Assembly (NCBI RefSeq): GCF_000375585.1
Contig: NZ_AQWP01000005.1
Span: 1-64,000, forward strand
Direction: 5' to 3'
From: Sinorhizobium meliloti 4H41
GTDB lineage: Bacteria; Pseudomonadota; Alphaproteobacteria; Rhizobiales; Rhizobiaceae
Length of the DNA: 64,000 bases
Shown: positions 55,577 to 64,000 of the stretch, piece after piece
Layout: every line of letters starts with the position of its first letter
Position numbering within the stretch: position 1 is the first letter of the stretch
The notes under the pieces: generated by a model
Databases searched by the model: none
What the model was told of the DNA's origin: nothing
Seen by the model: the letters and a program-made list of their open reading frames with translations, nothing else
Position numbers and translations under genes: made by a program

Positions 55577-55649
55577 AGATCGCACCGGCGGGAAGCGGAT
55601 ACATGCCCCGCGAAAGCCGGTGTTAACGGCAGTCGAGACGCTTGCCACG

Positions 55650-55707
55650 GGTCCCTTCTTCCCACCCTCGGGGAGAAGGTGCCGGCAGCCGGATGAGGGG
55701 CATTCTG
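55650..55707. repeat. RIME-like rhizobial repeat after metQ
   Basis: CCCTTCTTCCC (near 55653) and GGGGAGAAGG (55670-55679) form an imperfect stem followed by TGCCGGCAGCCGGATGAGGGGCA, a shape and tail close to the element at 49757-49890. It lies between metQ and the convergent receiver-cyclase gene and may double as a transcription end for both. Confidence 0.65.
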
Positions 55708-55731
55708 CGAAGACCGCTTACAAGTGCTCGA

Positions 55732-56982
55732 TCATCCCACCTGTATGCGGATGCCCGTGGCGCCGTTGAGCAGCCGCCTCAAATGATAGCTGGCGAGCGG
55801 ATCATCGGAGTGCATGCCAACCAGCGCGGCGAAAGCCGGCATGGCCGTGGCGCAGTTCTGCTCGAGCTTGGCAAAGGCTTTCAGATACTGCGTCGTGATC
55901 GGCGCATCGAACTCCGCCGCCGACAAGGGCTCGTGGGCGCGCAACGGCTCGCTGCGTCCGCGCAGGACAAGATCGCCGATCGGCCGCCCGCTGAATTTCT
56001 TTGCCCCGCTCGCGACACTGTCGCTGACGCAAATCCGCGTGCCCAGCGCCTTGTTTGCGGCTTCTAGCCTCGCGGCGGTGTTGATTGTGTCGCCGTAGGC
56101 GGTGAAATCGAAAAAGCGATCGCCGCCGAAATTGCCGACCAGCGCGGGACCTGCGTGAACGCCGATACGTGTGGTCCCGAAGTCAACGCCTTTCTGTTTC
56201 CAGCGCAGGCGAAACGCTTCTGCCCATTGGTCGAGTGCTTGTGCGCAGGCGATCGCGCGGGCCGCATAGTCGGCTTGGTCGTCAGGTGCGTTGAACAGCA
56301 CCTGAACCGCATCGCCGATCACTTTGGCCACGGTTCCTTCATGCATGAAGACGACATCCGCAAGGCCGCCGACATATTCGTTGAGCAATTCCGCCAGCAC
56401 CTCGGGAACGGCTGTCTCGACCAGCGAGGTGAAGCCTGTGATGTCCGTGAAGATCACAGCGATGTTGCGCCAGCGTACCTGCATGTCATCGTTATCACCG
56501 CCAGCGGCAAGGCGCCTGGCAAGTTCGGGCGAAAAATAGCGAGACAGCGACGCATGCGCGCGCTCCGCTTCCGCCTGGCGGCGGCGTGCCTCGCGCAAGA
56601 CCTCGACATGATGGATGGTCTTCAGGATCGTCGCTTCCAGATCCGCGAAATCGATCGGTTTGGTTAGGAAGTCGAACGCACCGCGATTCATCGCGGTCCG
56701 TATATTACTCATATCACCGTAGGCCGAGACGATGATGGCCGATTTCTTGTCCTCTCTCTCCTGCAGTTTCGCCAACAATGAGAGGCCATCCATGCGCGGC
56801 ATATTGATGTCCATGACCACAAGATCGACATGGGGATGCTGCTCGATCGCCTGGAGCGCATCAACACCGTCACGCGCGAACACAAAACTGATGCGTCCGT
56901 CGCGAACTTGCTTTCGGAATTTCCGCAGAATAAGCGTCTCCAAGTCTGGCTCGTCATCGACCACGAGAATAGTTGCGGTCAT
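55732..56982 (-). CDS. Response regulator with class III adenylate/guanylate cyclase output domain
   Basis: The N-terminal receiver domain (1-125) has D9/D10, the phosphoacceptor D58 in VVMDINMPRMDG and K108 in LTKPID. A short coiled linker (125-150, rich in Arg/Glu/Ala) leads to a class III cyclase domain (about 170-325). That domain has metal-binding D180 (IFTDITGF) and D224 (KVIGDAVQVLF), substrate-specifying K220 and T294 (FTAYGD), and the transition-state pair N301/R305 (INTAARLE). All catalytic positions are present; the K/T pair points to ATP, so cAMP is the expected product. The C-terminal 90 residues are unassigned. It is last of the four-gene operon, starting in the stop of the stand-alone receiver (ATGA). 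Confidence 0.9.
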   Translation of the reverse strand: MTATILVVDDEPDLETLILRKFRKQVRDGRISFVFARDGVDALQAIEQHPHVDLVVMDINMPRMDGLSLLAKLQEREDKKSAIIVSAYGDMSNIRTAMNRGAFDFLTKPIDFADLEATILKTIHHVEVLREARRRQAEAERAHASLSRYFSPELARRLAAGGDNDDMQVRWRNIAVIFTDITGFTSLVETAVPEVLAELLNEYVGGLADVVFMHEGTVAKVIGDAVQVLFNAPDDQADYAARAIACAQALDQWAEAFRLRWKQKGVDFGTTRIGVHAGPALVGNFGGDRFFDFTAYGDTINTAARLEAANKALGTRICVSDSVASGAKKFSGRPIGDLVLRGRSEPLRAHEPLSAAEFDAPITTQYLKAFAKLEQNCATAMPAFAALVGMHSDDPLASYHLRRLLNGATGIRIQVG

Positions 56983-57368
56983 GCGGCCGGTCCCAGTCTC
57001 GCCTCGATGGCCTGCCGCAGCTGGCTGAGGTCGATCGGTTTGGTCAGCATGCCCTCCGCGCCCCGATCCAGCGCAGTCCTGTGTGTCTCGGCATCTCCAT
57101 AGGCGGTGATCATGATGATTGGAACATCCGGCCTTCGTGCGCGCATTTCCGGCAGCATGTCGAGACCGGTCATCCCAGGCATGTTAATGTCGGAAAAAAT
57201 CAAAATCAGCGTTTGCTCACCAGTGTCGGCAATGCGGGTCAGGGCCTGCGCTGCTGAGGCCGCAAAATCCATCACAAAACGTCCGGCGCGAAGATCGCGG
57301 CGAAATTGCTGGCGTAACAAGACTTCGACGTCGGCTTCGTCGTCCACCACGAGAACCAATTGAGTCAC
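56979..57368 (-). CDS. Single-domain response regulator (receiver only)
   Basis: This 129-residue receiver without an output domain has D9/D10 near the N-terminus, phosphoacceptor D60 in IFSDINMPGMTG, T89 region MITAYGD, and K110 in LTKPIDL. The start is a GTG that overlaps the kinase TGA (GTGA), and its stop overlaps the receiver-cyclase ATG. It could shuttle phosphate, compete for the kinase as a phosphate sink, or act by protein-protein contact. It is similar in sequence to the receiver of the neighbouring cyclase, which suggests an old duplication. Confidence 0.9.
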   Translation of the reverse strand: MTQLVLVVDDEADVEVLLRQQFRRDLRAGRFVMDFAASAAQALTRIADTGEQTLILIFSDINMPGMTGLDMLPEMRARRPDVPIIMITAYGDAETHRTALDRGAEGMLTKPIDLSQLRQAIEARLGPAA

Positions 57369-58843
57369 GGCTCTTCTCCTATTGTGCGAAATTGCTTGCG
57401 CGGCAGCAGGATGATGAACTCGGTAAACGCACCGGGCTCGGTCTCGACATCGATCGTGCCGCCGTGTTGCTTCACGATAATGTCGTAGCTCATGGAGAGC
57501 CCGAGGCCAGTGCCTTCGCCAGGCGGCTTGGTCGTGAAGAATGGATTGAATATCTTCTCCCTAACCTCTGGCGGAATGCCGCCGCCGTTGTCGCGGATGC
57601 GGATTTCGACATGTTCGCCACGGTTGCGTGTGCTGGCGCAGAGCTCGGCTTCAAAGCCGAGGCTTTCATCACGGCTCCGCTTGGCTACGGCGTAGAATCC
57701 ATTGGACATCAGATTCAGCAGCACGCGTGTGATCTCCTGCGGGAACACGTCGGCGACGCCGGCGTCGGAATCGAATGCCCGTTTGAGGGTCACGTTGAAC
57801 TGCGGCTTATCGGCGCGCGCACCATGAAAAGCGAGATTGAGACTTTCTTCGACCAGCGTATTCACGTCCGTTGGCCGGTGTTCGCCGCCGCCTCCGCGCG
57901 AATGCAAGAGCATGTTCTTGACGATGGAATCGGCTCGCTTGCCGTGCTGCACAATCTTTTGCAGATTGTCCTTCAACAGTCCGCGCAGTTCATCGAGTTC
58001 GTCGCGAATATCGTCCGGGAGCGCGGCCGGCGCGAGCGCATCATTCAACTCGTCCGTCAATTCGACCGATAACGCCGCGAAATTGTTGACGAAGTTGAGC
58101 GGATTCTTGATTTCGTGCGCGATGCCGGCTGTGAGCTGGCCGAGCGAGGCGAGTTTTTCAGTCTGCACCAGACGATCCTTTACGGCGCGCAGGTCGTCAA
58201 GAGACTTGGCGAGCAGCGTGGTCCGCGACTGGATTTCTTCGAACAGCCGCGCGTTCTCAATCGCGATTACGGCCTGATCGGCGAACGTGTTTAGGAGTTT
58301 GATCTGGCTGTCGGTGAAGGTGCCCGGTTCGGCACGCGAAACACCGATCGTGCCAATAGCGATGCCCTCGCGAAGCAGGGGCACCACGATGATGCTTCGG
58401 TACCCCCTGGCGCGGGCCATCTCCTTGACGGCTTGAGGGATGCCGGGTTCGGTTTCGATATCGGAGCGGAACACCATGGTCGAGTTCATTGCGGCTCGAC
58501 TGTGGATCCCTGAAGATGCCAACGGAGCAGGAAATGAAGCCCGGATCTCCTCGTGGCTGGCCCGGCTTCCCGCCGTGCATGCCGCCAGATGAAGCATACC
58601 ACCTGCGACGCGCGTCACAAGCGCCGTTTGCCCGCCGAGCAGCCGCCGGGAGCTCTCAGAAATGACGTCGAAAACGGGCTGCACGTCGGTTCGCGACATG
58701 GAGATGACGTTGAGAATTTGCGCGGTGATAGTCTGGCGTTCCAGCGCAATGACAAGCTCCGATTGCAGGCTGGCATTCTCGGCCGCTGCGGAGCGTAGTT
58801 GCTGCTCAAGCTCTTCGATCCTGCGCCTCGGTTCGATGTCCAT
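57365..58843 (-). CDS. Cytosolic GAF-domain sensor histidine kinase
   Basis: This 492-residue kinase has no transmembrane segment. A coiled coil at 5-35 ([20 protein letters not shown]) leads into a GAF domain (about 45-200; FVVPLLRE-type core [18 protein letters not shown]), another short coiled coil, then the phosphoacceptor H243 in [16 protein letters not shown]. The ATPase domain has an N-box region ([17 protein letters not shown]), DNGGGIPP and [14 protein letters not shown]. The likely partners are the two receivers encoded next in overlap. It begins 6 bp after the MscS stop without its own good ribosome site, so translation is probably coupled to MscS. Confidence 0.92.
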
Positions 58844-58849
58844 GGCTGA

Positions 58850-59905
58850 TCATTCATTATCTGAAGCGCGCGCATAGCGCGATGAGAGCGGGGTGAGGTT
58901 GGCTGCAGGCTCGCCAGCCGCAACGGCTGGCCCCCAGAGCAGGCTCTCCGGCGGCATTGCCAGAGAAAGGCCGTTCGCCTTGCAGCCGCGGTAGACGAGA
59001 TCGATGACCTCGTTTTTGGCCGGCATTCGGGTCGCCGGGCTCGCCACGCAGAACTGCAGCTCGACCTCGATAGCCATCGCATCGATCGCTTTGAGCGCTA
59101 TGGCCGGCGCCGGAACCTTGACGATTCGCTCGCTGTTCCGCAGAACGCCTAGCATGATCTCTTCAACGACGGACGGCGCGTGGGTGGCGGCAATGTGCAC
59201 GGCAAACGCAAGCCAGTGCGTTTCGTCAGGACGGCTGAGGTTGGTTACTCCTTGCTTCGCCAGGACGCTGTTGGGCACCACCAACTCATTATGCGCGCCG
59301 GTCAGCAGATTCGTCGAGCGCCAGTTGGTTTCGGCGACTCTCCCTTCCGTGCCGTCGCTGAGCCGGATCCAGTCGCCGATGACATAAGCCCGTCCGAGCG
59401 TGAGCGCGATCCCCGAAAAGACGTCGGCGAGCGTATTCTGCAGCGCCAGGCCGATGATGACGGCAACCACGCCCGAGGTGGCGACCAACGGGCCTATTGG
59501 CGCGCCGAAGACGAAGCCGATGATCGATAGCGCCACGCCGAGATAAACGAGGGCTACGATCAGATCCTGCAGGAGATGTGCCTCCCGCGGCCTGTGGTTG
59601 AGGCCGATATAGATGTGCAGGAAGCCGATGATCGTCCATGCAAGATGGCTCCACCAGAGGATCCTCGCCGATTTGGCAAGCAACAGGCCGGCGCCCTTAA
59701 GCTCGGCCTGGTCGAGCTGGAAAGGCGATATTCTGCCCATGCCGAGCACGAGGCTCATGGTGGCGAAAAACAGAATCTGCACAATCAAGCGCCCGGTCGG
59801 ACGATTGCGCCCCTGAATGTGCCATACGAGAATGCCGGCAAGACCCAGAAGATTGATCAGGGCGAGCGGCAGAAAATGATGTTCGGCGAACATGGCAAGG
59901 CTCAC
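58850..59905 (-). CDS. MscS-family mechanosensitive/small-conductance channel
   Basis: This 351-residue membrane protein has four or five N-terminal helices. The pore-lining helix and its exit include VVAVIIGLALQNTLADVFSGI followed by ALTLGRAYVIGDWIRL, the hallmark of MscS. Then comes the beta domain (EGRVAETNWRSTNLLT, ELVVPNSVLAKQGVTN) and the cytoplasmic alpha/beta cage region. The protein ends about 20 residues after the cage, and no cyclic-nucleotide-binding domain is visible, although this pore-helix style is shared with bacterial cyclic-nucleotide-gated MscS channels. The start may be the GTG at 59905 or the ATG at 59893; neither has a strong ribosome site. It is the first gene of the kinase-receiver-cyclase operon. 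Confidence 0.88.
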   Translation of the reverse strand: MSLAMFAEHHFLPLALINLLGLAGILVWHIQGRNRPTGRLIVQILFFATMSLVLGMGRISPFQLDQAELKGAGLLLAKSARILWWSHLAWTIIGFLHIYIGLNHRPREAHLLQDLIVALVYLGVALSIIGFVFGAPIGPLVATSGVVAVIIGLALQNTLADVFSGIALTLGRAYVIGDWIRLSDGTEGRVAETNWRSTNLLTGAHNELVVPNSVLAKQGVTNLSRPDETHWLAFAVHIAATHAPSVVEEIMLGVLRNSERIVKVPAPAIALKAIDAMAIEVELQFCVASPATRMPAKNEVIDLVYRGCKANGLSLAMPPESLLWGPAVAAGEPAANLTPLSSRYARASDNE

Positions 59906-59961
59906 CCGGAATGATGTGCAACTGGGCGGAAAGGCCGGGCGTGGGCACCCGGCCTCGCCGG

Positions 59962-60378
59962 CTACTTCTTGATCGGGAAGGTCAGCTCCTTCTCATTGGT
60001 GTCGACGACGAAGACCGCCAGCAGCCTCGCAGGCTGTGTATCGCTGGCATTCTCGCTGACGCCGTGGCGGTCGCCCGGGATTTCCGAGAAGCTTTCGCCC
60101 GCCTTGTAAACGGTAATGGGGCCGTCGTTGACCTGGCTGCGGATGGCACCCTCCAGCACCGTCGCATAGATGAAGGCGGAGTTTGGATGGGTATGAGCCG
60201 AAGAGAAACCGCCGGGACCATATTCAACGAGGACGCCCTTCATGCTCTTGCCCGGGACGTTGGGCAATTCGTGCTCGTAGACGAGCGTGACTTTGGCGTC
60301 CTTGTCGCCGGCGTCGTGGGCCGTGGCCGTCGTGGACAAGAGGGCAGCTACGGCAAGGGCAAGGATTGGCTTGGTCAT
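59962..60378 (-). CDS. Secreted cupin-domain protein
   Basis: This small protein of 138 residues starts with a Sec signal peptide, MTKPILALAVAALLSTTATA, cut before HDAGDK. The cupin barrel has metal-binding histidines in FSSAHTHPNSAF and DRHGVSEN, the classical two-motif arrangement. Its function is unknown; periplasmic cupins of this size occur beside redox and stress genes. The ATG at 60378 has AAAGGA 7 bases upstream. It precedes the MscS gene by 56 bp on the same strand, so it may be part of the same transcript. Confidence 0.82.
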   Translation of the reverse strand: MTKPILALAVAALLSTTATAHDAGDKDAKVTLVYEHELPNVPGKSMKGVLVEYGPGGFSSAHTHPNSAFIYATVLEGAIRSQVNDGPITVYKAGESFSEIPGDRHGVSENASDTQPARLLAVFVVDTNEKELTFPIKK

Positions 60379-60439
60379 GTCGAATTCCTTTCTCGAAAAC
60401 CGGAGGGTGCGCCGCAGGAGGCGGTACACCGTCATCCAT

Positions 60440-61192
60440 TCAGTTGCGGGTAGAGGTTGCGAACCACTGCTCGAAGGTGATCCGGCCGAGGCGGGGATTG
60501 TTGTCGGAAACGAGCGAGCCATCTTCCAATTTGGCGCCGAAGTAGCGAGCCTCCGGATCTGCCTCCACTTTCCGGGCATCGCCCTTTGCTTTCAGGAAGC
60601 GACTAACGAGTTCGTGCAGCCGGACCCGCTCCGGACCCGAAATCTCCACAATGCCATTGATGGGCGCGGCCGTCGCAACGGCGGCCATGTTGTCGGCCAC
60701 ATCGTCGGAGGCGATAGGCTGGACGTAGGCTGGCGACAGATGCACGGTGTCACCGACCGTGCCGGATTGGGCGATGCCGCCGAGGAATTCCATGAATTGC
60801 GTCGAATGGACGATCGTGTAGGGAATGCCGGATTCCCGGATGATATTTTCCTGGGCTACCTTGGCCCGCATGTAGCCGCTGTCGGGCAGCCGGTCGACGC
60901 CGACGATGGAAAGCGCGATGTGATGCTTTACGCCGGCCGCCTTCTCCGCTGCCATCAGGTTGCGCCCCGATGTTTCAAAGAATTCGAGCACGGCCTTGTC
61001 ATCGAACGACGGCGAGTTTGCGAGGTCGATAACGACGGAGGCCCCGGCCAGCGCCTCGGCGAGACCTTCACCCGTGATCGTGTTGACGCCGGTGTTCGGG
61101 GCGGCGGCAATGACTTCATGGCCTTGCCTGCGAAGGCGGTCGGCCGTCTTCGAACCAATTAGGCCGGTTCCGCCAATAATGACGATTTTCAT
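60440..61192 (-). CDS. NmrA/SDR-like NAD(P)-binding protein
   Basis: This 250-residue Rossmann-fold protein of the atypical short-chain dehydrogenase group starts MKIVIIGGTGLIGSKTADRL (GxxGxxG). ALSIVGVDRLPDSGYMRAKV contains a Y-x-x-x-K-like pair (YMRAK), and YTIVHSTQFMEFL follows. Members act as redox sensors, isoflavone-reductase-like reductases or quinone reductases; the substrate cannot be told. The ATG at 61192 is chosen (GGAG 6 bases upstream). The cupin gene follows after 61 bp. Confidence 0.82.
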   Translation of the reverse strand: MKIVIIGGTGLIGSKTADRLRRQGHEVIAAAPNTGVNTITGEGLAEALAGASVVIDLANSPSFDDKAVLEFFETSGRNLMAAEKAAGVKHHIALSIVGVDRLPDSGYMRAKVAQENIIRESGIPYTIVHSTQFMEFLGGIAQSGTVGDTVHLSPAYVQPIASDDVADNMAAVATAAPINGIVEISGPERVRLHELVSRFLKAKGDARKVEADPEARYFGAKLEDGSLVSDNNPRLGRITFEQWFATSTRN

Positions 61193-61328
61193 GAGCTTCT
61201 CCAGGGGCGGCACGCTGAGCGTGCCGCGTTGTTCATTGGTTGCCGAGGGTGGTCACAGGGTCTGGTTCAGGTCGACCCGGATCTGGGGTTCTGTGGCAGA
61301 GCCGGGAGCCGCCTGAGCCAATAGTCGG

Positions 61329-62297
61329 TCAGTAATCCCAGAAGACCGGAACCCACCGAAAGGCATCGCCTTCAATCGCCACCCGGCCAACGGATGGGAA
61401 GGGCAGGTGAGTGGCGACGAGTTGCTCGCCAGTCTGAGCCAGCTCCGTCAGAAGTCGCACGCGGACTCGAGCCGCTTCCTCAGGATCGTGCTCGAAACCG
61501 TTGAACCAGTCGGGGTGGTCGAAGCCGACCGCAAATACGGCATCGCCGGCAAACGTCAGGCGGTCACCGCCAGATGCCACACGAACTATACTGTGACCGG
61601 GCGTATGGCCGCCGGTGCGCTGGACGATCACGCCTGGCGCGACCTCATGCTGCTCATCGAACGGCCGCAGATGGCTCCGGTATTCTGCCATGAAACGCTT
61701 GGCGGTTGCCCTAAGAGCGTCCGGGAATCCCTGCGGCATGTGAGCGTGGGTGAAGTCGGGCGACTCCCAAAAGGTGACCTCGGCGGCTGCCACGTGAATC
61801 TGCAGATCTGGCCGCAGCCGGTCCTTCACACCTTCTACAAGGAGGCCACCGATATGGTCCATGTGCAAATGGGTCAGCACAATGTCGGTTACAGACCGAA
61901 GATCAATGCCCGCTGAATCCAGTCGCCTGACCAACTGGCCAGCACGCGGGAGGTTCAGATTAGGATCCAGTCCCAGCCCTGCGTCGATCAGGATGGTTCG
62001 ATCACCGCTGCGCACCAGGGCTACGTTGAGCGACCAGTCGAACGCATCCGCTGGCAAGAACATCTCGCCCAGCCAGGCCGCGCGGGAGGCTGGATCAGCG
62101 TTGTGTCCCAGCATTTCGGTTGGGAGCGGTAGCATCCCGTCGCTGACCACCAGCACGTCAATCTCACCGACTCGCACCGCATAGCGCGACGGGACCAACT
62201 CTTCGGGTCCCGTTCTGCCGGGGTGTGAGTTGTTGTCCAAGCTCATGCTGGTCTCCTGCTGAGCAATCGAAGGGGGTATGGTTTCTGTCTGCGGCAT
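61329..62297 (-). CDS. Metallo-beta-lactamase-fold hydrolase (AHL lactonase/organophosphate hydrolase-like)
   Basis: This zinc-dependent hydrolase has 322 residues. The metal motif is THLHMDHIGG (HxHxDH), with the third histidine in GGHTPGHSIV, the bridging Asp in TFAGDAVF and a final His in ATHLPFP. The overall pattern RYAVRVGEIDVLVVSDGML, ending FRWVPVFWDY, is close to quorum-quenching lactonases and methyl-parathion-hydrolase-like enzymes; no signal peptide is clear. Two starts are plausible: 62297 (AGGAG, 6 bases) and 62246 (GGAG, 6 bases). The substrate is unknown. Confidence 0.85.
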   Translation of the reverse strand: MPQTETIPPSIAQQETSMSLDNNSHPGRTGPEELVPSRYAVRVGEIDVLVVSDGMLPLPTEMLGHNADPASRAAWLGEMFLPADAFDWSLNVALVRSGDRTILIDAGLGLDPNLNLPRAGQLVRRLDSAGIDLRSVTDIVLTHLHMDHIGGLLVEGVKDRLRPDLQIHVAAAEVTFWESPDFTHAHMPQGFPDALRATAKRFMAEYRSHLRPFDEQHEVAPGVIVQRTGGHTPGHSIVRVASGGDRLTFAGDAVFAVGFDHPDWFNGFEHDPEEAARVRVRLLTELAQTGEQLVATHLPFPSVGRVAIEGDAFRWVPVFWDY

Positions 62298-62447
62298 GAT
62301 GCGCTCCTGTTCTGCGTAATTGAAACGTGTCGGTTACAAGCCAGGGCGGATTTTATATTGAGGCGTGTTTGGCGGTCGATCCGGCCAAGGAAGAGGAAAG
62401 GCCATACCTGAGGATAGGGCAGCCTATGCTCTCTGTGCGGCCGCAGC

Positions 62448-62479
62448 GGAGATTTTGGCAGAGGGAGATTTTGGCAGAG
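62448..62479. repeat. Perfect 16-bp tandem duplication
   Basis: GGAGATTTTGGCAGAG occurs twice in direct succession (62448-62463 and 62464-62479) in the otherwise featureless 264-bp gap between the AhpD-like and hydrolase genes. It is consistent with replication slippage. I see no coding role. Confidence 0.75.
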
Positions 62480-62561
62480 GCTGGCATGAAGGAGCAGACG
62501 CTTTGCATCGGACCCTCCAGAGCGGATGAATCCGCCCGGTGCGTTCGCGTCTGCTCGGTGA

Positions 62562-63011
62562 TCAAGCGGCGCGCTTGTGGTCTGCCGGATGCTGCAGCCG
62601 AAATCCGATCGCCAGCCGGTTCCATGCATTGATCATGGCGATGCCGATAGACAGCACCAGGAGTTCGTCTTCCGAAAAGACGCTTTGAGCAATTTCATAA
62701 TCCGCATCCGGCGCACGGCTCTCGGCGATATTGGTCAGCGACTCGGCCCAGGTGAGTGCTGCGCGCTCACGGTCGCTGAACAGCTGCGATTGGCGCCAGG
62801 CGCTCAGAAGACGCTCTTCCGTCTCGCCCCGTTTCAGGGCGTCCTGACGATGCATGTGCAGGCAATGGGCGCAACCGTTGATCTGCGACACGCGCACCTT
62901 GACGATCTCCATTAGTTTGGGGTCGAAGCTTTTGGCAATCCAGGCTTCGACGGCGACGAGGCCATCGACTCCGTCATTCTTCCTGGTCAATATGTTCAAA
63001 CGTCCGGTCAT
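62562..63011 (-). CDS. AhpD-like/carboxymuconolactone-decarboxylase-family protein
   Basis: This is a 149-residue alkylhydroperoxidase-like protein. The redox-active C47-x-x-C50 with H54 is in INGCAHCLHMH, the AhpD core. VKVRVSQINGCAHC and RERAALTWAESLT are typical of the family. Members serve as peroxidase partners or thiol-disulfide proteins. The ATG has GGAG 6 bases upstream. It is the first gene of the minus-strand block 55.7-63.0 kb and divergent from the hydrolase at 63413. Confidence 0.88.
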   Translation of the reverse strand: MTGRLNILTRKNDGVDGLVAVEAWIAKSFDPKLMEIVKVRVSQINGCAHCLHMHRQDALKRGETEERLLSAWRQSQLFSDRERAALTWAESLTNIAESRAPDADYEIAQSVFSEDELLVLSIGIAMINAWNRLAIGFRLQHPADHKRAA

Positions 63012-63412
63012 TCTGCTCTCCGTGGATTGATTGCGATCGGGTCGAAGCCACGCGGGTCGCCCGGATCACCAACTATCGACGGCATGGCGGATCATCCATC
63101 TGTCCGGAAGGCGCGCCCGATGCGCATCTGATGGAGCTGAGCCTTTCCGATCGATTAGGCTTCCCGTCGTTTGGGCCACCTCCTCCTATACTTCGGCAGA
63201 GGAAGGTCGCGTCCCATGTAGAATGGTGTGCGATCGCGAACCCACGCATTCTCCCGGCATGCGCAACCGCTGCCTTAGGAGAAAGAAGATGCCCAAAAAT
63301 ATCAATGTGTTGGCGCTCTGACGCAGCCGTCGCGACGGGTCGTTCGACGCGATCGGCTCGGGCCGGCGGTTCCCATCCTCTTTCGCATTTCAATCATCGT
63401 GAAGGATAAAAT
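63012..63412. other. 401-bp divergent intergenic region
   Basis: This lies between the AhpD-like gene (minus) and the Tat-exported hydrolase (plus), and should carry promoters for both. No clear operator palindrome stands out. It holds a short ATG-started remnant with its own ribosome site at 63289 (listed separately). A GAAGGATAAAAT precedes the hydrolase ATG as its ribosome site. Longer open frames in this stretch lack coding character. Confidence 0.5.
63289..63360 (+). pseudogene. Apparent 5' remnant of an NADPH-dependent FMN reductase gene (or a 10-codon leader)
   Basis: AGGAGAAAGAAG precedes an ATG coding for MPKNINVLAL and then TGA. FMN reductases of this fold begin with a strand of this kind followed by CGSLRxGSFN. 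In the same frame after the TGA the bases read RSRRDGSFDA, which lines up with that motif with the stop in the Cys position. The similarity then fades within about 10 codons. I read this as a decayed and truncated gene. A functional 10-residue leader peptide is the alternative. Confidence 0.4.
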
Positions 63413-64000
63413 ATGCAGGACATTTCAAACCCACCGGCTGTCGGCGTCTCGCGCCGCGACGCGCTGCTCGGCAGCCTTACCGCCGGTATCGCAACGGCCT
63501 TGCCGGCGGTTGCCGCCGCAAACACTCCGAAGCAGCCTCTCACCGCCACCATTAACCACGGAAAGCAAGCCATGAGCACCATCACCACCAAGGACGGCAC
63601 AGAAATCTATTACAAGGACTGGGGCACCGGTCCGGTCGTCACCTTCTCGCACGGCTGGCCGCTGAACTCCGATGCATGGGACGGTCAGATGCTATTCCTC
63701 GTCCAGCAGGGCTTTCGCGTCGTGGCGCACGATCGCCGCGGCCATGGACGCTCAAGCCAGCCGACGTCGGGGAACGACATGAACGGATACGCCGATGATC
63801 TGGCGGCCGTTATCGAGGCGCTGGACCTCAGGGACGCAACGCTGGTCGGTCACTCCACCGGCGGGGGCGAGGTTGCCCGCTATATCGGCCGGCACGGTAC
63901 GAAGCGCGTCGCCAAGGCCGTCCTCATCGCCGCCGTGCCGCCAGTCATGGTGAAATCGGCGGCCAATCCGGAAGGCCTGCCGATCGAGGCGTTCGACGCG
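63413..64000 (+). CDS. Tat-exported alpha/beta hydrolase, non-haem chloroperoxidase-like (3' end outside window)
   Basis: The frame is open from the ATG at 63413 to the window end (196 codons, incomplete). The N-terminus has a twin-arginine signal, [15 protein letters not shown], with a likely cleavage after PAVAAA. Typical chloroperoxidase/esterase sequence then starts at an internal ATG, M54 ([17 protein letters not shown]). It has the oxyanion [22 protein letters not shown], and the nucleophile S148 in [10 protein letters not shown] (GxSxG). The rest of the catalytic triad lies beyond the window. Such enzymes are esterases with perhydrolase activity. The Tat extension is unusual for the family. 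Confidence 0.85.

Follow-up and report, generated by a model that had tools for sequence, protein, structure and literature searches.

Why does a gene for a mechanosensitive channel stand in one operon with a cyclic AMP (cAMP) signalling module in Sinorhizobium meliloti 4H41, and is this arrangement more than chance? The locus lies in the first 64,000 nucleotides of contig NZ_AQWP01000005.1, referred to here as the window. Re-checked open reading frame (ORF) coordinates on the (-) strand give the order MscS-type mechanosensitive channel (58850..59905), soluble GAF histidine kinase (57365..58843), single-domain receiver (56979..57368) and receiver fused to a class III adenylyl cyclase (55732..56982). 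The MscS stop TGA is followed by a 6-bp spacer, TCAGCC, and the kinase ATG; kinase and receiver, and receiver and receiver-cyclase, overlap by 4 bp each. A sequence-only reading of this DNA had claimed these spacings, the four protein identities and the residues H243, D60, D58, D180, K220, D224, N301 and R305; the spacings were confirmed, Pfam domains agree with the identities and each residue is present. The four genes also recur as a unit in several species. Searches of Nitrobacteraceae and of plasmids found further loci with both MscS and the module, and the possibility that the genes are adjacent only in this strain, by a chance junction, is rejected. On comparative grounds, the grouping of kinase with cyclase and the MscS-kinase junction are more than chance, because kinase and cyclase are no more than 800 bases apart at 31/31 module loci, the key residues are invariant, the junction recurs, and comparison of the window with five relatives gives each of the four genes a ratio of nonsynonymous to synonymous substitution rates (dN/dS) in the range 0.14-0.28.

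The explanation preferred here, with confidence evenly divided for and against, is that a Bradyrhizobium-type cAMP module recombined, apparently once, into a rhizobial cupin-NmrA-MBL cluster, directly after its MscS gene, and was kept and spread as a four-gene unit in which the kinase would set cAMP and the channel would be co-expressed. The part that can be read directly from sequence comprises gene content, the junction, recurrence, purifying selection, conserved residues and one natural sensor-cyclase fusion.

The module was compared at 31 loci, the window included, all picked by their cyclase; L186 was removed as a duplicate of L057 before these counts and the cyclase tree (G, L and C numbers are our handles for genomes, loci and contigs). 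The window cyclase (Response_reg and Guanylate_cyc in Pfam) has the two metal aspartates, Lys/Thr pair, Asn and Arg of class III enzymes: D180, K220, D224, N301 and R305 are invariant in 31/31 cyclases, and position 294 is T in 18 (as in the window, T294), S in 11 and A in two. Its best solved relatives in the PDB are the adenylate cyclase chains 1wc1/1wc0, which we take to be CyaC; K220 and T294 fall at the Lys/Thr positions, presumably the pair significant for substrate in class III cyclases. The fused receiver matches receiver-adenylyl cyclases (CheY-AC), with D9, D10, D58 and K108 present at 31/31 loci. The phospho-acceptor Asp is invariant in 31/31 cyclase receivers and in 26/26 lone receivers (D60 in the window protein, a Response_reg domain by Pfam). 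The receiver-cyclase is a predicted cAMP producer under phosphorylation control. A weak structure model from eight sequences (mean predicted local distance difference test score, pLDDT, 63) is confident for the receiver and poor for the cyclase; in it, one long helix (residues 112-149) runs from receiver to cyclase.

The window kinase has the HisKA domain with its histidine (H243, in the motif HEIKNP) and the HATPase_c domain of a two-component histidine kinase. HEIKNP is found at 30/31 loci; in L059 the best match is split over two frames. The only sensor detected is a single GAF domain (GAF_2 in Pfam). Ten other module kinases carry two to six GAF domains, dCache and HAMP with or without GAF, or PAS; across these relatives, the sensor part of the kinase is exchangeable. 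No NKFDE-like pattern, a mark of cAMP-binding GAF domains, occurs in the five GAF kinases scanned. In helix alpha-1, L17, Q20 and R23 are shared by 30/31 cyclase receivers and 26/26 lone receivers (the window cyclase has R at position 20), and the two receivers are on average 54% identical there versus 44% elsewhere; such likeness weakly fits one kinase serving both receivers.

Outside the window, the lone receiver stands between kinase and cyclase at most loci (26/31 overall; missing at 5/31), and four-base overlaps are common. Full-length receiver-cyclase relatives occur in 7/199 genomes of the order, own included; matches at E <= 1e-60 occur in 20/199, 13 of these with the cyclase half only. 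The corresponding figures are 13/33 for the genus (own included, E <= 1e-90), 10/394 for the family (own included, E <= 1e-120) and 10/119 for the family of G035 (E <= 1e-100; one partial with a stop). The receiver-cyclase is also found in named Bradyrhizobium, Mesorhizobium, Rhizobium, Ensifer and Methylobacterium strains. By this distribution, kinase, receiver and cyclase form an alphaproteobacterial module, usually without MscS. In the cyclase tree the window copy pairs with that of Bradyrhizobium ivorense (100/100) within a Bradyrhizobium-type clade (100/99), and the other copies of the genus form a separate 11-row clade (100/100) away from it. No second receiver-cyclase copy was found in the window genome at E <= 1e-90. 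At two Bradyrhizobium loci (L053:164-7004 and L055:1173-7004), the module kinase follows a large ORF that resembles an RND pump, judged from its sequence; the L053 kinase carries a dCache-HAMP sensor.

The channel has a separate background. It is 351 amino acids long from a GTG start, and its MS_channel_2nd beta domain (Pfam, 1.3e-14) and membrane segments (hydropathy) place it in the MscS superfamily; MS_channel_3rd scores 19.2 bits, just under the cut-off of 21, and the best solved relatives are YnaI, MscM and MscS. MscS relatives occur in 19/33 genus genomes (E <= 1e-50). Seven from the same genus (L167-L173), which have neither the module nor a cyclic nucleotide-binding (cNMP) domain, have NmrA and cupin genes upstream in 7/7 cases and an MBL gene in 3/7. 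In S. meliloti, genes for MBL, an NmrA-type SDR, cupin and MscS are likewise clustered, and the module is not directly behind MscS. Gene order in these relatives places the MscS gene in a cupin-NmrA(-MBL) cluster that in most cases lacks the module.

The sequence-only reading had the circuit acting with or on the channel. If cAMP made by the cyclase bound and opened this MscS, as in bacterial cyclic nucleotide-gated (bCNG) channels, a cNMP domain would be expected; Pfam finds none on the window channel, and none of the six PF00027 matches in its genome (which also holds 23 PF00211 cyclase and six PF00924 matches) lies at an MscS place. The idea draws on a longer channel type in the genus (frames of 483-556 amino acids): of three examined with Pfam (43-58% identical), two carry a C-terminal cNMP-binding domain (1.4e-17 and 2.3e-9), and the third, L179 (0.014, below the cut-off), is the only one of six long channels fetched that adjoins NmrA and cupin, at the matching place. 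Because the window channel, unlike these relatives, has no such domain, cAMP is unlikely to act on it directly; direct gating is rejected for this protein and keeps a very slight probability at most.

How the two parts met can be read at the junction. DNA likeness to the B. ivorense module begins at 58863, within the last MscS codons, and extends with one gap to 55753; the junction itself occupies 58844..58863 on the (-) strand. Relative to the B. ivorense kinase, the window kinase is one GAF short. Since G254 has a single-GAF kinase of the same length (78% identical over residues 1-483), the donor may also have had one GAF. The intact unit is present in the window, Rhizobium gallicum M101, R. 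etli 8C-3 and G700, all Rhizobiaceae; the kinase behind MscS in R. gallicum is 88% identical to that of the window. Rhizobium sp. CB3090 has MscS and the module without the lone receiver, with a 132-bp gap. In R. tropici CIAT 899 (L218:13996-15819), MscS is followed after 2 bp by one 607-residue ORF in which GAF and HisKA (kinase residues 1-319) are fused in frame to the cyclase (residues 129-416); the six cyclase residues are intact, and the ATPase domain and both receivers are missing. This fusion was found in one strain, and its fusion point, residue 129, falls inside the long helix of the weak model described above.

The MscS genes of the seven unit, variant and remnant loci form one clade with support 90/87 (G215, a broken gene, was omitted from the tree). 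The module thus apparently came to stand directly behind MscS through a single joining event, although a support of 90/87 does not place this beyond doubt. The junction has two forms, 6 bp (TGA TCAGCC ATG) and 2 bp (TAG CC ATG), which match two MscS sub-clades; the first is common to the window, G226, R. gallicum and R. etli. A 4-bp overlap joins receiver and cyclase in each of the four intact units. The spacing of kinase and receiver varies: the window and R. etli have a 4-bp overlap there, R. gallicum and G700 a 10-bp gap. The unit is, by its known occurrences, lineage-restricted.

A breakpoint in the last MscS codons and confinement to one MscS clade are also what would be seen if the module had come to lie behind MscS by chance and been kept for the MscS promoter, channel and cAMP being functionally unrelated. 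This would agree with the module standing behind other genes elsewhere, such as the RND-pump-like ORF, and with some lineages having lost the lone receiver or the greater part of the module; it sits less easily with a module kept directly behind MscS in several species over an MscS synonymous divergence (dS) of about 0.6, and with CIAT 899, which retains sensor and cyclase there although both receivers and the catalytic domain of the kinase are gone. Retention for the promoter is a tentative alternative, possible and to be taken seriously.

Substitution rates bear on whether the four genes travelled together. The dN/dS values given above indicate that all four are under purifying selection. 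Between the window and R. gallicum, dS is 0.29 for MscS, 0.27 for kinase and receiver and 0.20 for cyclase. Against R. gallicum and R. etli together, the four genes span 0.20-0.33, compared with 0.71 and 0.72 for NmrA and 1.04 and 0.41 for MBL. Since dS of the unit is low relative to NmrA and MBL in R. gallicum, MscS travels there more with the module than with its other neighbours. Both halves of the CIAT 899 fusion have dN/dS of 0.13 against CB3090; the fusion is undated, so this value is no proof that it is used.

Several observations weigh against joint inheritance and function of the unit. The most telling hint is the loss of most of the module in two genomes of the same genus, G226 and G215, which have kinase remnants behind MscS and keep a module copy elsewhere. 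MscS is found at 0/31 other module loci (one duplicate pair among them) and at 0/80 named loci fetched by cyclase profile (14 of them counted as module loci, several on short contigs). Conversely, 24/31 MscS rows compared have no module directly behind; one of these (Tardiphaga) has it 5 kb off. Divergence within the unit is uneven: dS between the window and G700 ranges over 0.27-0.60 (cyclase 0.27, MscS 0.60), and between CB3090 and G700 it is 0.20 for kinase and 0.54 for cyclase, so recombination also cuts inside the unit. Finally, the alpha-1 sign of one shared kinase is weak, as the excess is modest on average and absent in the window pair (40% versus 43% for the rest).

Integrase-like gene remains, recognised by eye, lie directly after the kinase remnant of G226 (L165:8801-9600).

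If the module did join MscS and spread with it as a unit, the following mechanism can be proposed. The GAF domain would respond to a redox cue or a small molecule inside the cell; the kinase would phosphorylate D58 of the receiver-cyclase, switching the class IIIb adenylyl cyclase and setting cAMP; and cAMP would work via CRP-type regulators of the host. The lone receiver, through D60, may compete for or drain phosphate and tune the output; it is read as dispensable because it is missing in CB3090 and at 5/31 loci. MscS, from the same transcript, would be a co-expressed osmotic output, so that a release valve and a cAMP signal are made together under one condition, probably osmotic or envelope-related. 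Much of this had been put forward in the sequence-only reading, and the soluble kinase with its GAF domain, the complete phospho-sites of both receivers, a class III cyclase with a CyaC-like Lys/Thr pair and recurrence of the unit are in keeping with it; a link of circuit and channel, in either direction, is conjectural.

The channel might instead be the input: efflux through MscS would alter the cytoplasm, the GAF kinase or the cyclase would read the change, and cAMP would report valve opening. One soluble GAF as the only detected sensor suits this idea, as does a cyclase nearest 1wc0/1wc1, a review (PMC4284465) describing bicarbonate stimulation of a cyanobacterial CyaC. Nothing ties this GAF or cyclase to ions, and the same kinase family pairs with dCache or PAS sensors elsewhere; the idea is unlikely. 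The most far-reaching proposal is that MscS and the GAF-kinase/receiver-cyclase constitute one osmo-signalling unit coupling valve opening or need to cAMP; in CIAT 899 the phosphorelay would have been bypassed, leaving a GAF-HisKA-cyclase protein that senses directly and continues to serve the channel. The strongest hint of a functional tie comes from CIAT 899, which lost the relay yet kept sensor and cyclase behind MscS; this proposal is nevertheless doubtful.

On the (-) strand upstream of MscS lie genes for a cupin (59962..60378), its neighbour in the conserved cluster, and for further cluster members: an NmrA-like NAD(P)-binding reductase (60440..61213), an MBL-fold hydrolase (61329..62297) and a carboxymuconolactone decarboxylase-family protein (62562..63011). 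The cupin is 93% identical to that of G226, 83% to G215, 89% to R. gallicum, 91% to R. etli, 85% to CB3090, 84% to G700 and 78% to CIAT 899. A GC-rich hairpin lies between the cupin stop and the MscS start (59932..59956, (-) strand; z -3.3 by shuffles, window only). Hairpins were seen in this gap in 10/10 loci folded, by eye and without shuffles, and at least several are unrelated in sequence; the hairpin may set MscS and the module apart from the cupin transcript.

The whole operon lies at the edge of a strain-specific island of 16.3 kb (contig positions 55704-72052; window part 55704..64000). G212, which belongs to the same species, lacks the island at this site, its flanks joining to within 21 bases; a 66% identical MscS lies at another place in G212 and has no module. 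A dispersed repeat (55643..55706) with many short matches in three related genomes marks the left edge. Besides the unit, the island carries genes for cupin, NmrA, MBL, the carboxymuconolactone decarboxylase-family protein, an alpha/beta hydrolase, a second two-component set, a LysR regulator and an SDR-type reductase (the lone receiver, LysR and SDR were named from sequence). The tightly packed second set (contig positions ~64920-70091, L206:9921-15092) is mostly past the window and encodes, in order, a MASE1 and PAS kinase, a LuxR-type regulator, a lone receiver and a LuxR-type regulator. It recurs with the MscS cluster on Rhizobium plasmids. R. gallicum, R. etli, CB3090, CIAT 899 and G700 have largely the same gene set and order as the island, as far as fetched.

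Plasmids account for several of these loci. The receiver-cyclase occurs in 20 of 72,556 plasmid records (E <= 1e-60), and neighbourhoods were compared for five of the 20, with plasmid MscS genes taken among the matches listed (60 of 192). All five matches at >=75% identity have this MscS within 6 kb (5/5); in four, MscS is upstream of the cyclase on the same strand, separated from it by nothing but the kinase part (and receiver). In Tardiphaga sp. 709, 12 kb of a 99.8-kb plasmid contain kinase, cyclase, two MBL genes, hydrolase, MscS and the second set, differently ordered and without a lone receiver. In G254, module and MscS are ~30 kb apart on one 42-kb contig. Of the 119 genomes from the family of G035, only those of Tardiphaga and G254 have both MscS and receiver-cyclase at the cut-offs used.

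Of the six MscS genes in the window genome, three have a PF00211 match no more than 4.5 kb away (p ~5e-4 under uniform placement, post hoc). This does not establish that MscS genes generally tend to be neighbours of cyclases. One MscS is within ~3 kb of a class III cyclase on opposite strands (C2:435420-438833); some other species of the genus share this pair, which among the matches listed is close in G199, G205 and G207 and 23 kb apart in G213 and G230. Another (C4:113706-116475) is also within ~3 kb, and the pair recurs in G212 among the matches listed. In G207, again among these matches, a different cyclase is 2.8 kb from the corresponding MscS, on the opposite strand.

Taken singly, the receiver-cyclase, the GAF kinase and the MscS channel are of known kinds. 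As the sequence-only reading had supposed, no description of an operon combining MscS, cyclase and two-component genes was found in the literature searched, whose coverage mostly leaves out subscription journals. In one paper on CIAT 899 that mentions adenylate cyclase, the cyclase is a two-hybrid reporter. To our knowledge, the functions of accessory MscS channels are little known. PMC4222275 reports that the biological roles of most class III cyclases in rhizobia are not known. A unit shared by several species suggests a possible link of cell pressure and cAMP signalling, and the natural variants (no lone receiver; sensor-cyclase fusion) are ready test strains for an osmotic valve-cAMP link; they also bear on the role of a lone receiver beside a receiver-enzyme.

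Known systems resemble parts of the unit. Receiver plus class III adenylyl cyclase is a recognised CheY-AC class, according to PMC1183210, and a phytochrome-like histidine kinase of Anabaena, AphC, purportedly phosphorylates and activates CyaC (PMC4284465). The window enzyme shares the joining of receiver and class III cyclase and is closest in the PDB to 1wc0/1wc1; it differs in that kinase, lone receiver and receiver-cyclase lie in one operon behind MscS. CyaC carries further domains of its own. The Chp system of Pseudomonas aeruginosa (ChpA, PilG, PilH; CyaB) has two receivers with opposing cAMP effects and a mechanical input, as described in PMC10519157. One kinase with two receivers is common to both, an analogy of working and not membership; Chp has a chemotaxis-type kinase, and pili rather than a channel. 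Its receivers are not known to be fused to a cyclase.

The channel has the beta domain of the MscS superfamily (YnaI, MscM, MscS) and hydrophobic segments fitting the MscS membrane part; it differs in having a cAMP module directly behind, which 24/31 relatives compared do not. In bCNG channels, MscS is combined with a cNMP-binding domain, tying an MscS channel to cyclic nucleotides; the window channel has no such domain. These channels appear among the references of PMC4560390. For S. meliloti, 26 class III cyclases have been reported, among which CyaD1, CyaD2 and CyaK, associated with Clr, are described as receptor-like (PMC4222275). The window enzyme is likewise a rhizobial class III cyclase in a cyclase-rich genome, with the 23 PF00211 matches noted above; CyaD1, CyaD2 and CyaK are receptor-like, whereas the window cyclase is a response regulator.

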